From Acidobacteriota bacterium (lineage in GTDB: Bacteria > Acidobacteriota > Terriglobia > Terriglobales > Acidobacteriaceae), in the NCBI GenBank assembly GCA_003225495.1, contig QIAJ01000007.1, forward strand, positions 22,167 through 86,166: a stretch of 64,000 bases of DNA. Direction: 5' to 3'. Made by a program: the position numbers and the translations under genes. The notes beneath the pieces are model-generated. The model saw nothing but the letters and a program-made list of their open reading frames with translations, was not told the origin of the DNA and searched no databases. Shown here one piece after another: positions 16,562-27,175 of this stretch (its first letter is position 1; each line of letters begins with the position of its first letter).

Positions 16562-17077
16562 CTACTTGTGGTTGGGATTCGGCTTGCTGTTGTTATCAGT
16601 CTCTTTATCTTTCGTCTTTCCCTTGTCCCCGCTGCAGGTCTCTGAAACCATGTCGATTTTGGAAACCATGAACTGCTGGCCGGACGAGGCCGACATACCA
16701 CTATTGGAAGCGGTTGCTGACGGAGTATCCGATCCGCTGCCATAGGTTCCATGAACAGTCACCGTGTGACCAACATGCGAGGCCAAATCGGCCGAGCCTG
16801 CCAATGCTACATCCTTGCCATGCTTATCTTGCAGGACGTACTTGCCGCCCTCTGATTGAATGCAGCCCTTCAGTTTCTTCTCGCCCCTGGTCTCGCTGGC
16901 AGCCGTGTTCTGGTTTCCTGTGTTGCTCATATCGCCAGAAGTTGAGGGAGTAGTTGAAGGCTGAGTTGACGGGTTGGTACCTTGCGGCATGGTTTGTTGA
17001 CTGCCCGGCGTGGTCTGGGCAACTGCTGCTAGTCCAAACACCAAGGCAAAGACAGTTGCGATAACAATGTTTCTCAT
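16562..17077 (-). CDS. Secreted DUF5818-like protein
   Basis: 171 residues. Signal peptide (NIVIATVFALVFGLAAVAQ), a Thr/Ser/Pro/Gln linker (~22-65), then a small beta domain: LKGCIQSEGGKYVLQDKHG, LAGSADLASHVGHTVTVHG, a Ser-rich insert, and FMVSKIDMVSETCSG. Two Cys (GCI and ETC) bracket the domain and may pair. The charged tail is KDKETDNNSKPNPNHK. The same GC...Y.L.D...L.GS...VGH.V.V.G...VS...V...CS pattern is present in the LPXTG protein at 22712. AGTGAGGAGCC precedes the ATG. Function unknown. Confidence 0.8.
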   Translation of the reverse strand: MRNIVIATVFALVFGLAAVAQTTPGSQQTMPQGTNPSTQPSTTPSTSGDMSNTGNQNTAASETRGEKKLKGCIQSEGGKYVLQDKHGKDVALAGSADLASHVGHTVTVHGTYGSGSDTPSATASNSGMSASSGQQFMVSKIDMVSETCSGDKGKTKDKETDNNSKPNPNHK

Positions 17078-21137: not shown

Positions 21138-21872
21138 TTAGTGTTTTGGAACTTCGACAGCTCCTCGTTCTGTTCTGGCCTCTGCCGAATATTTGCTCAC
21201 AGTGGAGACAAATTTCTGCGTACCCTCGGGAGGTCGGACGCGTCCAGTCAGAATATCTTTGAACGGCACCTCTTTGCCATAGAGGTGACGGGTGTCATCA
21301 TCATCTTGTTTGACCACTGCACCATTCAATTCCAGGCCAGCCAAAATTCCTCGTGCCCGGGAATAGCTCAAAACTTCCGCCCGCATCTTCCAGTCGGTAT
21401 TGGCTTCCGTCTGGCGTCCCACTGGACCTGCAGCGACTGAACCTTCGGCTCCGAGTTTGAATTTGCTCGAAAGCAAGTGCTCCATGCCCTTGTCATTCAT
21501 AACCAGCATGACAAGGTCGACCGCTTCTCCACCAAATTGCAGTCCCCAACTTCCGCCCGCAATGGTGATAGGAGCCGGCGCGCTCCAACCCGCACTGGTG
21601 CGGCAGGTCGCGACGCCTTTGCCATAACGGGCTCCGACAATGAAACCGCCCTTAATCATCGAAGGCACAACCGCCACGCATTTCGCCTTTTCAAAAACTT
21701 CTTGTGGAATGCCTTTGTCGGGCGCACCCATGATCTCGTCGAGCACGTTGGCAGCGGAATTGATACGCTTCACCTCTTCTGAAGTCTTCTCTTCACTGTC
21801 CTTGGCGTACATTCCGACGCTCATGGCGCCAAGCATTACGCCAATAGCCGTCAATTTACTCAATAGCTTCAT
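21138..21872 (-). CDS. SYLF-domain (Ysc84-like) lipid-binding protein
   Basis: 244 residues with a signal peptide (AIGVMLGAMSVGMYA). The SYLF domain is clear: KGIPQEVFEKAKCVAVVPS, IKGGFIVGARYGKGVATCR, SWGLQFGGEAVDLVMLVMN, and SKFKLGAEGSVAAGPVGR. SYLF proteins bind phosphoinositide-like or membrane lipids; bacterial members are exported and poorly understood. AGAGAGGTTTT precedes ATG 21872. Not in an operon. Confidence 0.92.
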   Translation of the reverse strand: MKLLSKLTAIGVMLGAMSVGMYAKDSEEKTSEEVKRINSAANVLDEIMGAPDKGIPQEVFEKAKCVAVVPSMIKGGFIVGARYGKGVATCRTSAGWSAPAPITIAGGSWGLQFGGEAVDLVMLVMNDKGMEHLLSSKFKLGAEGSVAAGPVGRQTEANTDWKMRAEVLSYSRARGILAGLELNGAVVKQDDDDTRHLYGKEVPFKDILTGRVRPPEGTQKFVSTVSKYSAEARTERGAVEVPKH

Positions 21873-21970: not shown

Positions 21971-22702
21971 TTAAGGGGTTGCGGGTAGAGATGAAGAGGT
22001 TTTGGCGAAAAGACGTTGCGGTGCATGCTCGGGTATGGCCTGTTGCAGCGTTGCCACCACAATCAGGCGTTTCGGCGCAGGCCCGATGTAATAGGTGGGA
22101 TAGCAAGTTATTAGAGTAAGCCGAGCATCCGCGGCTGGCAATGTAACAGACAGATCGGATGGACTTACTATTGTTTTGCTCGAAACGAAGTAGTGAAATC
22201 GGCGATGCCCACGTGTGACAAGGATCTCGTCCCCATTCTGTAGTTCGTTGAGGCGTCTAAAAAACGTGTCACGATGTCCGGCAATTACGGAGTTCCCCGC
22301 ATCACCAGGCCAAGCCGTTTTCTCCACATGTCCCGGTGCAAGTAGAAGAGATTTCTTTGTGGTGCTCTCGAGAACTGCGGCTTCCAGTTTTATCTTGGGA
22401 ATCGACAGAACGGTGACGTCTTGTCCAGCACTCGTCGCGGATGTCTCCGTGACTAGCGATCGCTGGCGCGCCATCAGACGTTCTTGCTCCCGATGCATCC
22501 ACCGATAAGCGCCGCCGGTTAGAAGCATGAGTGAGACGCCAGTAGAAATCAGAAAGACCGATGCCTGCCGCCGCATTCGGTTACGCGCCACAGGGCCGCC
22601 CACCCGAATTGTTACGTAGGTACAAAATTGATTGAACGAGGGCAAATACGGCCTCCAGAAATACAGACGAAGTGCTCGCGCAACCAATTTGCCCGGGACC
22701 AA
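21971..22702 (-). CDS. Class D sortase
   Basis: Sortase catalytic features: VIAGHRDTFFRRL (catalytic His), LTLITCYPTYYIGPAP (TLxTC motif with catalytic Cys), then KRLIV with the Arg. One N-terminal membrane helix (SVFLISTGVSLMLLTGGAY) anchors it in the inner membrane. Sequence after the Cys (YPTYYIGPAP) fits the class D/E group. The maximal frame starts at TTG 22702; the first ~37 residues look unprotein-like, and GTG 22591 preceded by GGGCGGCC is a credible alternative. The gene directly follows the LPATG protein on the same strand, separated by 9 bp at most, indicating an enzyme-substrate pair. Confidence 0.88.
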   Translation of the reverse strand: MVPGKLVARALRLYFWRPYLPSFNQFCTYVTIRVGGPVARNRMRRQASVFLISTGVSLMLLTGGAYRWMHREQERLMARQRSLVTETSATSAGQDVTVLSIPKIKLEAAVLESTTKKSLLLAPGHVEKTAWPGDAGNSVIAGHRDTFFRRLNELQNGDEILVTRGHRRFHYFVSSKTIVSPSDLSVTLPAADARLTLITCYPTYYIGPAPKRLIVVATLQQAIPEHAPQRLFAKTSSSLPATP

Positions 22703-22711
22703 CCCCGACTG

Positions 22712-23641
22712 TTACTTCCGGATGTAGAGACCGGCCGCCAGAGAACCGAATCCCAGTAATCCAAGCAGCGGAAGCTCAGAACCAGTAGCCGGCAGTGACC
22801 GGTTCGACGCAACTTCACTTTCCTTGGCTGGTGTAGCTTCGGTAGCAGTCTTGCTCCGCTCAGGCTGGCCGGCGGTGACCGACGCTGGCTGATCGGATGA
22901 CGGCGTTACATTTGCGGAAGCGGACGAGCTCGGAGTAGAAGAAGGCGAGCTGCTGGCTGTCTCTCCCGCGGTCGGAGCAGTTGCCGGAGCAGTAGTGGTC
23001 GCCGCCGTCGAAGTGTCAGATTTCGGTGCCTCGGTCGTAGTGGTGGTGGTAGTCGTTGTGGAAGTCGTCGCTGCACTCGGCTGAGTCGAACTTGCGGTTG
23101 CGGAAGACTGCGCCGTTGCTGGCGCCGCCGTCATGCCGTCCGGCGTAGCGGTTGCCGACGTCGTCGGCGCGTTGGATGCGGCGGACGATCCTGAGCCGCT
23201 ATTCGAGCAGTGGTCAGCCACGTCCGTTACATTGCTAACCTGGAGAGCATTAGTGTTCGCGGCAGTCGAAGCATTTGAATTGGACATTGCGCTGCTTGAG
23301 TTTGTGTCGGTCGAGCTGGGAGTAGATGCGCTGCTCGTGCTACTTGCCGAACTCGCGAGCTGGCCGGAGACCTCTACTTCGTGGCCTACTTTCCCGCCGA
23401 GATTGTCGACGCTCCCAGTCAGGTGATAAACCGTGCCAGTTCGGTCATCCGTCAGGGTGTAATTCCCGGTCATCCCGCCGAGACAGCCACGCATGGTGCT
23501 CGTCGACTGGTCGCTGGGTGTAGCGCTAGTCGTGGGAGAAGGTGTGGAAGTTTGGGGCGCCGCACTGCCCGATGTGTCCTGCGCGACTGCAAATGCCGCT
23601 GCCAGGCTCATCACCGATAACGACAGAATTATCCTTTTCAT
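22712..23641 (-). CDS. LPXTG-anchored Ser/Thr-rich surface protein with DUF5818-like domain
   Basis: 309 residues. Signal peptide (RIILSLSVMSLAAAFAVAQ), Thr/Ser/Pro linker, a DUF5818-like domain (MRGCLGGMTGNYTLTDDR, LGGKVGHEVEVSGQL, then QVSNVTDVADHCS after a Ser/Ala insert), a long Ser/Thr/Ala region with a run of nine Thr/Ser, and a C-terminal sorting signal: LPATG, hydrophobic LLGLLGFGSLAAGLY and RK tail. This tripartite end is what a sortase cleaves between Thr and Gly. GGAGGCTTCCATC precedes ATG 23641. Its only local enzyme candidate is the adjacent class D sortase. Outer-envelope topology of the anchored product is unknown. Confidence 0.88.
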   Translation of the reverse strand: MKRIILSLSVMSLAAAFAVAQDTSGSAAPQTSTPSPTTSATPSDQSTSTMRGCLGGMTGNYTLTDDRTGTVYHLTGSVDNLGGKVGHEVEVSGQLASSASSTSSASTPSSTDTNSSSAMSNSNASTAANTNALQVSNVTDVADHCSNSGSGSSAASNAPTTSATATPDGMTAAPATAQSSATASSTQPSAATTSTTTTTTTTTEAPKSDTSTAATTTAPATAPTAGETASSSPSSTPSSSASANVTPSSDQPASVTAGQPERSKTATEATPAKESEVASNRSLPATGSELPLLGLLGFGSLAAGLYIRK

Positions 23642-23784: not shown

Positions 23785-25965
23785 TCAACGCGGCCAGCGA
23801 ACGAGGACTTCGACTTCTCCACGCTTCTCCATAATCTCGACGCGAACCGCATTGTCCTTACGCTCGAAATACAGATCGATAGAACCGGAGCCCACCTCCA
23901 GTCGCCGTATCCAAAGTTGTTGGAGTACGGGTGGAAGGTAGGGCTGTTCCAGGATCAACTGCTTGTTTGGGGCGTCGATCGACATTCCCAGGCATGATTC
24001 GAGCAACATGAATGCGGCACCTGCCGCCCACGCCTGCGGCGCACAAGCCACAGGATAGAGAGTCGGGCCTTCGCCGGAGCGGCGCTCTAACCCGCAGAGC
24101 AGTTCCGGCAGACGATGCAGTTCGACGTTAGCGCTGACGTCCATAAAGCTCGAAAGAATGCGCGCTGCCAGATCGCGGAAGCCGTAATTGGAAATCCCCA
24201 GCGCAACCATAGCGTTGTCATGTGGCCATACCGATCCGTTGTGATACGAGACGGGATTGTAGCGAGCTTCGGAGACGGCGACGGTACGCACGCCCCATCC
24301 ACTGAAGAAATCTGGCGAGAGCAAGGTCCGCGCGATGCGATGAGCGTGATCGCGGCTGGCGATACCGGTATAGAGGCAGTGGCCCGGATTGGATGTCCGC
24401 ACCCGGCACGGTCTCTTCGAGCCGTCGAGAGCGAGTGCGTACATTTCCAGATCAGGGCACCAGAAGCTCTCTTCAAACTGAATCTTCAAATTGCGAGCTT
24501 GAAGCTCCAGTGCATTCGCTTTATCGTGCCGGCCAAGAATCGCCGCCAATTGGGCGGCGGCCCGTTTGGCGGCATACACATATCCTTGCACTTCGCAAAG
24601 CGCAATTGGAGGCTCGGCAATCGTACCGTCGGCGTGAAACACCGAATCATTCGAGTCTTTCCACCCTTGTTGTACGAGACCCCTGTTTGTGCGGCGGCAA
24701 TATTCAACGAAACCGTCTTGATCACGATCACCATAGCGCTCAATCCATTCCAGCGCCGCTTCGATATTCGGCCAGATCGATTGAATGAAGCCGAGATCGG
24801 CGGTGCGCTGATAATAAGCGCCGGCGAGGAAAATGAATAATGGTGTCGAATCGATTGAGCCGTAGTAGCGTCCGAAAGGGATTTCACCCAGCCTTGCCAT
24901 CTCTCCCCCGCGCGCTTCATGCAGAATCTTGCCAGGCTCGGCATCGGATTCGGGAATCACTTCGGTCGCCTGGTTCGCCGCCAGATATTTCAGAACGCCC
25001 TTCGCAATCCGCGGATTCATCCACAAACATTCCAGCGCGGTAATGATGCCATCGCGCCCGAACACCGTGCTGAACCACGGCACGCCCGCGTAAGGATAGT
25101 CAGTTTCAGGATTGCCGACCGTCATCATTCGTATGTCCGCGCCTGACCGCCTCAGCCAGTCGTTAAATTGTTCGTTGGACGAATGAACGTAGCAGCCGCC
25201 ATTGGAGCCCGAGGTTCGCATCTCCTCGGAAACCGCTTCGAGCGCTGTAACGAAATCGTCTTTTCGTTCGGCACATGATCCACACAGGCAGGCGACAACG
25301 ATCTCTACTACAATCTCCTGCTTGGGCTGCAGAACGATGTCGAATTCGCACCCCTGCGAAGAAATGCGTTCCGGCGCAGGTGTGCAGCGGATATTTGTAG
25401 ATCGCACGAGGTCGTCAAGGCCGCGGTACGATAAAGCGACACTGTCACGCTTAACCTGTGGCTCGAGATGCTGGCCCTTGCGTGCGCGCTTGGTGCCACG
25501 GACCTCAAACAGGTCCGCAAAGTCAGCACTGAATTGAACAGTGATCGGGATCGAGATAGCAGACAGGGCGTAGCTGGAAATACGCAGCTGTTCATAACAA
25601 GCGCCACGCCACAGTGTCTTGGAACGCGTGACGTGAACGGTTCCGCGAGGAATTACCACCTGGCCATCTCGAGTGATGTCGACGTTGGTGAGGTCGGCCG
25701 TGAACAGCGAATTGTCTTCGCGGACTGTTGAACTCAGCAGCAGCGGCCGCTGGTTGCCAATGTAGAGGGCGAGTTCAGAAAGGAAACGCGTCCCCTCGGA
25801 GAAGATGCCCTCTTCGCCGAGTCCGACACGTTCGATATCACCGAAGCGGTCGAAGACAGCGAACATCTTTCCGTACTTGAGAACCCGGTTGCGTTCGTCA
25901 GCAGGCGGAGATTTCGTCGCAATATAAAATTGCGTGGGTTTCACATCATGCAACGGACACCCCAT
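23785..25965 (-). CDS. Amylo-alpha-1,6-glucosidase / glycogen debranching-type enzyme
   Basis: 726 residues. The N-terminal ~220 residues form a beta-sandwich of the GDE_N_bis type (VFDRFGDIERVGLGEEGIF, FLSELALYIG). The (alpha/alpha)6 catalytic part has GVPWFSTVFGRDGIITAL, GRYYGSIDSTPLFIFL, GLVQQGWKDSNDSVFHADG and HNGSVWPHDNAMVALG, the acidic clusters typical of the GDE_C/GH133-like fold. It hydrolyses alpha-1,6 branches of glycogen-type glucan or a related oligosaccharide in the cytoplasm. The start overlaps the end of the upstream GT4 gene by 20 bp, so both form one operon. Confidence 0.92.
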   Translation of the reverse strand: MGCPLHDVKPTQFYIATKSPPADERNRVLKYGKMFAVFDRFGDIERVGLGEEGIFSEGTRFLSELALYIGNQRPLLLSSTVREDNSLFTADLTNVDITRDGQVVIPRGTVHVTRSKTLWRGACYEQLRISSYALSAISIPITVQFSADFADLFEVRGTKRARKGQHLEPQVKRDSVALSYRGLDDLVRSTNIRCTPAPERISSQGCEFDIVLQPKQEIVVEIVVACLCGSCAERKDDFVTALEAVSEEMRTSGSNGGCYVHSSNEQFNDWLRRSGADIRMMTVGNPETDYPYAGVPWFSTVFGRDGIITALECLWMNPRIAKGVLKYLAANQATEVIPESDAEPGKILHEARGGEMARLGEIPFGRYYGSIDSTPLFIFLAGAYYQRTADLGFIQSIWPNIEAALEWIERYGDRDQDGFVEYCRRTNRGLVQQGWKDSNDSVFHADGTIAEPPIALCEVQGYVYAAKRAAAQLAAILGRHDKANALELQARNLKIQFEESFWCPDLEMYALALDGSKRPCRVRTSNPGHCLYTGIASRDHAHRIARTLLSPDFFSGWGVRTVAVSEARYNPVSYHNGSVWPHDNAMVALGISNYGFRDLAARILSSFMDVSANVELHRLPELLCGLERRSGEGPTLYPVACAPQAWAAGAAFMLLESCLGMSIDAPNKQLILEQPYLPPVLQQLWIRRLEVGSGSIDLYFERKDNAVRVEIMEKRGEVEVLVRWPR

Positions 25966-27016
25966 CGTCCAGGAGCAGCACCTCTCGGGTCGCCCGGCGA
26001 GTTAATCGTTCATACAAAGTGAGATAGTCCTGCGCCATTCGAGTTGCGCTGAAACGTTCTTCAAAGGTCCGGCGACACTCTTCACGGCTCAGTTGTGATA
26101 CGTGTGCTACCGCTTTCGCCGCCTGCTGGACATCGTTCACGAAGAATCCTGTGCGGCCCTCTTCGAGCACTTCAGGGACGGAACCCGAGGGATAAGCGAT
26201 CACCGGCGTCCCGCATGCCATGGCTTCGATCATAACCAGCCCAAAGGGTTCCGGCCAATTGATCGGAAAAACAAGAGCCATTGCATTTCCGAGAAAATCA
26301 CTTTTCTCCGGATAACCGATTTCTCCAATGAAGTCAACCAGCGGACTATTTAAAAGTGGCTTTATTGCCGTTTCGTAATATTCCTGATCTGCGCGATCCA
26401 CCTTGGCCGCAATCTTAAGCGGTACTCCGGATTGAGTGGCAATCTCAATGGCTCGGTCCACACCCTTCTCAGGCGAAATCCGGCCGAGAAAAGCTAAATA
26501 CTTGCCCGGCGCACCGTGAAACTTGTATCGGTCCATTGGCAGGCCGTGGTACACGGTCGCCTGCCAGTTCGCATTCGGCAGAGGTTCACGTTGAGAGTCC
26601 GAAATGGAAATGACCGGCATTTCTGCGAATCGGCGGTAGAGCGGTTGCAGGTCCGGAATGTCCAAGCGGCCATGAAGCGTCGTTAGGTTGGGAATATTCT
26701 CCCTGCGTGAAAGAGGAAAGTGCAAGTAATCGATGTGAAAATGGACAATGTCAAAATTATCCTTCTGACTGAACAGTTCTTCCAGCATTACGATGTGGTG
26801 CGCGAGGTGATCGATGGCAGTTGTATTCAAACGTAACGCCTCGGGACAAACGGAAACGAGATGAGCGCTGGTTTCGGAATCTCCGCTGGCAAAAAGCGTG
26901 ACGTCATGTCCGAGACGAACCAGTTCTTCGGTCAAAAAGGACACGACACGTTCTGTGCCGCCGTATAGTTTTGGCGGAACACTCTCAAACAGAGGCGCGA
27001 CTTGAGCAATTCTCAC
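25946..27016 (-). CDS. Family 4 glycosyltransferase
   Basis: 356 residues. N-terminal VRIAQVAPLFESVPPKLYGG plus TERVVSFLTEELVRLGH is the GT-B donor-side opening; the C-terminal half has FLGRISPEKGVDRAI and PEPFGLVMIEAMACGTPVIA, the ExxxxxxE nucleotide-sugar motif. GTG 27016 is the start, behind GAGGAACAGACACT; the longer frame to 27082 adds unrelated residues. It is co-transcribed with the debranching enzyme, which suggests an alpha-glucan or maltosyl product. Cytoplasmic, retaining mechanism by family. Confidence 0.92.
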   Translation of the reverse strand: MRIAQVAPLFESVPPKLYGGTERVVSFLTEELVRLGHDVTLFASGDSETSAHLVSVCPEALRLNTTAIDHLAHHIVMLEELFSQKDNFDIVHFHIDYLHFPLSRRENIPNLTTLHGRLDIPDLQPLYRRFAEMPVISISDSQREPLPNANWQATVYHGLPMDRYKFHGAPGKYLAFLGRISPEKGVDRAIEIATQSGVPLKIAAKVDRADQEYYETAIKPLLNSPLVDFIGEIGYPEKSDFLGNAMALVFPINWPEPFGLVMIEAMACGTPVIAYPSGSVPEVLEEGRTGFFVNDVQQAAKAVAHVSQLSREECRRTFEERFSATRMAQDYLTLYERLTRRATREVLLLDDGVSVA

Positions 27017-27175
27017 AGTGTCTGTTCCTCGGGGTAGAGATAGTTCTAAACTTCCGCCAAAACCAACGGAGGTGATGAACAACTCAGTTGTTAAGTATGG
27101 CGATGAGCGTTCGCTGGAATGCTACCCATCCGCCGAAGTCAGGTCGAAGGACTAAAAAACCAATCCCACTTGAGC

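Follow-up and report, generated by a model that had tools for sequence, protein, structure and literature searches.

Sortase biology rests nearly entirely on Gram-positive bacteria, and the locus described here raises the question of what such an enzyme does in a bacterium with an outer membrane: does it serve the protein encoded beside it, and to what would it attach that protein? The window that we analysed is a stretch of 64,000 nucleotides from the assembly of a soil acidobacterium (GCA_003225495.1, contig QIAJ01000007.1). A sequence-only reading had pointed to a sortase gene with the motifs TLITC and HRDTF and, directly upstream, a gene for a protein ending in LPATG, a hydrophobic stretch and RK. 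Both reading frames were recovered where that reading had placed them, and the gene order on the minus strand is as follows.

25946-27082, minus strand: GT4 glycosyltransferase, a conserved member of the locus
23785-25965, minus strand: glycogen-debranching-type enzyme (GDE), conserved upstream neighbour, used as a syntenic marker and not claimed as a part of the system
22712-23641, minus strand: LPATG-tailed substrate of 309 amino acids (homologue comparison; tail HMM, E 7.9e-14)
21971-22702, minus strand: class D-like sortase reading frame, 243 amino acids from TTG (PF04203 match; NCBIfam class D models best)
21138-21872, minus strand: SYLF (Ysc84) domain protein (PF04366, E 5.6e-38), downstream neighbour and syntenic marker

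The sortase and its class

The sortase matches PF04203 (Pfam) with an E value of 7.4e-32 and 110.2 bits against a cut-off of 26.6, which places it in the sortase superfamily. To follow its conservation, 93 sortase loci were collected, a tree was built and 95 family sortases were aligned. The tree has three groups: a GN-type group (4 loci), clade A (45 members, including the window sortase) and clade B (46, including the second sortase of the genome). The 15 loci nearest to the type of the window form sub-clade A1. The motifs HRDTF, TLITC and PKRLI of the window sortase are the sites of His143, Cys200 and Arg212, numbered on the 243-residue frame from TTG.

22505-22567, minus strand: N-terminal transmembrane helix, about residues 46-66 (sequence; helix 37-85 in the structure model)
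22274-22276, minus strand: codon of the catalytic His143, invariant in 95 of 95 family sortases
22103-22105, minus strand: codon of the catalytic Cys200 (TLITC), invariant in 95 of 95 family sortases
22067-22069, minus strand: codon of the catalytic Arg212, found in 94 of 95 family sortases, the remaining one being truncated

The earlier reading had named a missing Cys, His or Arg in the family, or a pair scattered in related genomes, as grounds for abandoning it; the three residues are conserved in the family, and so is the pair in the relatives. In the AlphaFold model, a single membrane helix at the N-terminus precedes the barrel. The true start of the sortase is probably GTG 22591 or ATG 22576 rather than TTG 22702, since it is from there on that the family alignment is conserved and the structure model confident. 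With either of these starts the gap between the two reading frames is about 120 bp, while the substrate lies 10 bp upstream of the frame that starts at TTG. No sigma-70 promoter or terminator patterns were found in the region of the pair, a result which is weakly informative for Acidobacteriota.

As to the class, the sequence-only reading had called the enzyme a class D sortase. Class D is indeed the top-ranked NCBIfam class for it, and the PDB structure nearest to the AlphaFold model is that of C. perfringens SrtD (4d70), with class E chains close behind; the scores, however, stay below the cut-offs of both the class D model NF033746 (121.4 bits against 165) and its LPxTATN sub-model NF058671 (130.5 bits against 140). 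Because class D scores best yet falls under these curated cut-offs, the enzyme is class D-like and is not filed as a class D member. The class D models of NCBIfam match all 39 aligned clade A sortases, and in the other clade several sortases pass the NF058671 cut-off (L093 with 150.2 bits, L086 with 147.1 bits). Other classes fit less: the enzyme reaches 88.6 bits with the marine class GN model TIGR03784 (cut-off 158) and 91.9 bits with class E, which is defined by 160 bits and an LAXTG target, whereas the target here is LPATG. Judged from its sequence, the adjacent LPATGS tail would qualify as a class D signal of the LPNTAS/LPQTGS type encoded in the same operon.

The substrate protein

The reading frame at 22712-23641 is made up of an export signal, one small domain, a long stalk and a tail.

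23582-23641, minus strand: signal peptide MKRIILSLSVMSLAAAFAVAQ, about residues 1-20 (sequence; LLAAAxAxAQ pattern kept in homologues)
23198-23506, minus strand: DUF5818-like domain, predicted OB-fold barrel with the Cys pair GCL...DHC (PF19135 in homologues; structural matches weak)
22796-23206, minus strand: low-complexity stalk of 137 residues, 77% Ser/Thr/Ala/Pro (composition)
22781-22795, minus strand: LPATG box with predicted Thr-Gly cleavage (LP-T invariant in the 15 sub-clade tails)
22715-22780, minus strand: remainder of the sorting signal, a hydrophobic segment and the terminal RK (sequence; kept family-wide)

The C-terminal end of the frame reads NRSLPATGSELPLLGLLGFGSLAAGLYIRK, and the stretch 22712-22795 thus holds the C-terminal LPXTG, the hydrophobic segment and the basic end of an LPXTG sorting signal. 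PF19135 (DUF5818) matches 20 of the 22 aligned homologues at E values of 0.5 or lower (best 1.5e-7), and the window protein scores 13.2 bits against a gathering threshold of 27. The Cys pair of the domain is invariant in the homologue alignment. No function was assigned to the domain, since the structural matches of its model are weak and only of a generic OB-fold kind (Foldseek E 0.056 or worse; VIA Z at most 8.2). The genome encodes at least eight DUF5818 proteins and, according to the tail model described below, only the one adjacent to the sortase carries this tail. A DUF5818 protein lacking an LPXTG tail is encoded within the window at 16562-17077.

Pairing within the genome and across the family

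The genome has exactly two sortases, and a tail model made from relatives gave exactly two matches in it, each adjoining one sortase. The genome-wide search that the sequence-only reading had proposed therefore added one tail, LPKTG, beside the second sortase and outside the window; within the window, the neighbour scan found no LPXTG tail other than that of the 22712-23641 protein, in agreement with the first account. The second pair lies on contig C236 (L002:585-1382 and L002:1417-2226), with the LPKTG protein directly downstream of the sortase; this protein has a proline-rich linker and cannot be placed clearly in a Pfam family (DUF1344 matches weakly, E 0.0012). A search of the genome with TIGR01167 at E values up to 10 returned neither real tail, and its weak matches (E 0.1-1.4) were dismissed as noise, the model also matching E. 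coli and archaea.

Among the relatives, which include acidobacterial subdivision-1 metagenome genomes, Candidatus Angelobacter and Candidatus Korobacter, a gene with an LPXT[AGS][ST] tail lies immediately upstream of the sortase in 15 of 15 A1 loci, and position 6 of the signal is Ser or Thr in every one of these tails. Tail-bearing reading frames make up 52 of 1976 within 1.5 kb of family sortases but 2 of 4600 farther off, so that the proximity of sortase and tail is not due to chance. In the first 201 genomes, 69 had both sortase and tail, 3 a tail only, 4 a sortase only and 125 neither. The co-occurrence was retested in unused genomes, because the tail model had come from sortase neighbours in those 201; in the genomes outside model building the corresponding numbers were 59, 1, 8 and 131. 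Over all 399 family genomes, 128 had both, 4 a tail only, 12 a sortase only and 255 neither (16 discordant); the Fisher p-values are tiny but overstate independence, the genomes being related. Seven of the eight sortase loci that were read from sortase-only genomes have an adjacent tail that falls below the genome-wide threshold; in several of them the box is unusual, for example MPDSGS or MPAAGT. The pattern holds in the genus of the window as well, where most sampled genomes have neither sortase nor tail.

As a caution, two LPXTG-type tails were seen in genomes of this genus on contigs that carry no sortase: a second tail of G490 on the short contig C112 (L278), the sortase of this genome lying elsewhere, and a tail on contig C156 (L277) of G570, a genome that is 75% complete. 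As regards the flanking genes, 10 of 15 A1 loci have the SYLF gene as the next one after the sortase. SYLF proteins are also encoded at most 6 kb from eight clade B sortases (e.g. L096, L097, L092 and L100), and a functional link between the SYLF protein and the sortase is possible.

Natural losses of the enzyme

In two genomes from different genera, G073 (L172) and G041 (L174), the order GT4-GDE-substrate-SYLF is kept and the sortase gene is missing. A tblastn search for a sortase remnant in both genomes gave no trace (best E 0.007, unconvincing). G073 is 68% complete, though its locus is contiguous. In these sortase-less genomes the LPXT box, LPQTAT-like elsewhere, has decayed to NPQNAT and SPRKTA, whereas LP-T is kept in 15 of 15 sortase-bearing A1 loci. 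The hydrophobic part of the tail, LPLLGL(V/I)G, is kept in both. Loss of the sortase was thus accompanied by decay of the box, which is suggestive and, with two cases, not proof.

The tail is found once per sortase in this genome, it is adjacent in all A1 loci, it co-occurs almost perfectly with the enzyme across the 399 genomes and its LPXT box has decayed in the two genomes where the sortase is gone; the proposal of a dedicated enzyme-substrate pair is therefore strongly supported. The system has one adjacent target per enzyme, present or absent jointly with it; the one qualification is that two sortases are encoded in the genome.

The sister clade A2 and GN-type loci

In A2 loci the substrates are mostly remote from the sortase, with several per genome. 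In some of them (e.g. L072, L076, L054 and L048) the gene just upstream of an intact sortase encodes a tail that has Gly, Ala or Ser in place of the Thr (LPEGGS, LPNGGS, LPAASS) but keeps the hydrophobic part; the true LPQTAS substrates of these genomes are encoded elsewhere. The A2 protein adjacent to the sortase may act as a partner that the enzyme does not cleave. Many A2 tails were overlooked by the regular-expression scan of neighbours, and reading the neighbours showed tails that are degenerate, not absent. Directly after the sortase, 23 of 30 A2 loci have a gene for a ThiO-like FAD-dependent oxidoreductase (DAO, PF01266) at a median distance of 44 bp. The family also contains genuine class GN sortases (L129, L130, L132 and L133), with a VIT/VWA target ending in GAPATGTAD...; the VIT/VWA domains were confirmed for the target of L133.

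Proposed mechanism and anchor site

The system is probably a one-enzyme, one-substrate sortase system of an outer-membrane bacterium whose product is tethered to the periplasmic peptidoglycan. Its computed basis consists of the catalytic residues, the tripartite tail, the conserved pairing, the co-occurrence and the decay of the motif after enzyme loss; the cleavage site, the acceptor, the final location and the biological role are inferred. Retention in the membrane by the tail is established for LPXTG proteins. The substrate would be exported by Sec and its N-terminal signal peptide removed, after which the hydrophobic tail and the RK end would arrest it in the inner membrane. The sortase would be held there by its N-terminal helix with the barrel facing the periplasm. 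Cys200, assisted by His143 and Arg212, would then attack the Thr-Gly bond of LPATG to form a thioacyl intermediate, from which the substrate would be transferred to an amine; the most probable one is on the side chain of meso-DAP, either in peptidoglycan or in its precursor. The mature protein is predicted to carry its small OB-fold domain on a long, flexible stalk rich in Ser and Thr and to be covalently bound by its C-terminus to the periplasmic peptidoglycan.

The diderm nature of the host is indicated by LptD, found in its own genome (PF04453, 44.1 bits against a cut-off of 22.4); among the controls, this model matches only E. coli and Caulobacter. The presence of meso-DAP is read from the MurE proteins of relatives: those of eight, four of them from the same genus, have the DNPR motif, which marks MurE enzymes that add meso-DAP (PMC3829189). 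In the 91.6% complete assembly of the window itself no MurE scored above the cut-off and paralogues reached at most 68 bits. The probable reason is a gap in the assembly, MurE being present in 12 relatives. Periplasmic peptidoglycan, which the sequence-only reading had named as one possibility, would be the best-supported and most likely acceptor, because a periplasmic meso-DAP amine is available and class D enzymes of other bacteria anchor their substrates to peptidoglycan.

Discussion

The pair may be real and yet use an acceptor other than peptidoglycan: the substrate could be joined to itself or to some other periplasmic or lipid-linked amine, or be released by hydrolysis to the periplasm or the medium. 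Such an outcome has something in its favour, for behind an outer membrane, as marked by LptD, wall anchoring would not give the usual display of the protein, and two diderm systems, GlyGly-CTERM/rhombosortase and exosortase, process tails of this kind without known wall anchoring (PMC3237569). We nevertheless consider it unlikely: the features of class C are absent and the best models are those of class D, neither a pilin-type lysine motif nor partner genes were seen, and the known class D enzymes attach proteins to peptidoglycan (PMC3208642).

It is much less plausible that the two genes are neighbours merely through shared descent of the locus, the sortase mainly serving other substrates in the genome. 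The A2 loci lend some weight to this, since their mostly remote substrates imply that adjacency is not required for function; against it, the tail model finds only the two sortase-adjacent tails in the genome of the window and only one tail among its DUF5818 proteins, and where the sortase has been lost, the gene next to it has lost its box as well. Least of all do we expect the locus to be a decayed, inactive remnant from a Gram-positive donor. The sortase-free state of most sampled genomes of the genus might suggest such an origin, but the catalytic residues are invariant, the clade is deep with 45 members and intact reading frames, and LP-T has been kept wherever an A1 sortase is present. 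The preferred reading thus remains a dedicated pair whose product would be bound to periplasmic peptidoglycan.

Known class D sortases use LPNTAS and LPQTGS signals, and their operons include the substrate (PMC4498605, PMC3208642). The Firmicutes operons of this class, B. anthracis SrtC/SrtD-BasI and C. perfringens SrtD with its LPQTGS protein, provide the best NCBIfam and PDB matches to the window sortase and share with the window pair an LPxT[AG]S hexapeptide and a substrate in the same operon; a class D locus of Metabacillus (L250) even has the same order, with an LPDTAS substrate directly upstream of the sortase. In contrast to those operons, the window sortase scores below the class D cut-offs, its host has an outer membrane, its substrate carries an OB-fold domain on a Ser/Thr stalk and there is no link to spores. 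The window system is a diderm variant of these known sortase-substrate operons.

Class GN (TIGR03784; PMC3237569) likewise already provides the concept of a Gram-negative sortase dedicated to the product of a neighbouring gene. Like the window pair, it has a single dedicated target beside the enzyme in a diderm, but the window sortase belongs to another clade and its target is not a VIT/VWA protein. Exosortase/PEP-CTERM and rhombosortase/GlyGly-CTERM resemble the present system in their tripartite C-terminal tail and co-distributed processing enzyme, whereas their enzymes are unrelated to the window sortase and their signature motifs differ. In those systems a lone target is adjacent and many targets are remote (PMC3237569), a pattern that A1 and A2 mirror here.

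The literature search, which covered few subscription journals, gave no paper on Acidobacteriota sortase-LPXTG pairs; all that it gave was the number of sortase genes in Solibacter. As far as the literature searched goes, the class D-like family of Acidobacteriota, the substrates with an OB-fold on a stalk and the two losses of the enzyme with their decayed motifs are new.

A broader idea, which we put forward tentatively and think rather doubtful as yet, is that the sortases of this phylum build a covalent periplasmic layer of OB-fold domains on stalks, fixed to a thin peptidoglycan and perhaps reaching or crossing the outer membrane. If so, the sortases may do envelope-tethering work of the kind that L,D-transpeptidases perform with Braun's lipoprotein; to our knowledge, no sortase has been shown to act in this way. 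The conserved one-to-one pair, found in a phylum that has an outer membrane and is common in soil, allows the attachment site of a sortase to be tested where there is no thick wall. The two natural enzyme losses predict which residues matter, and the comparison of A1, with its single adjacent substrate, and A2, with several remote substrates and a degenerate adjacent tail, offers a handle on how sortase specificity drifts.
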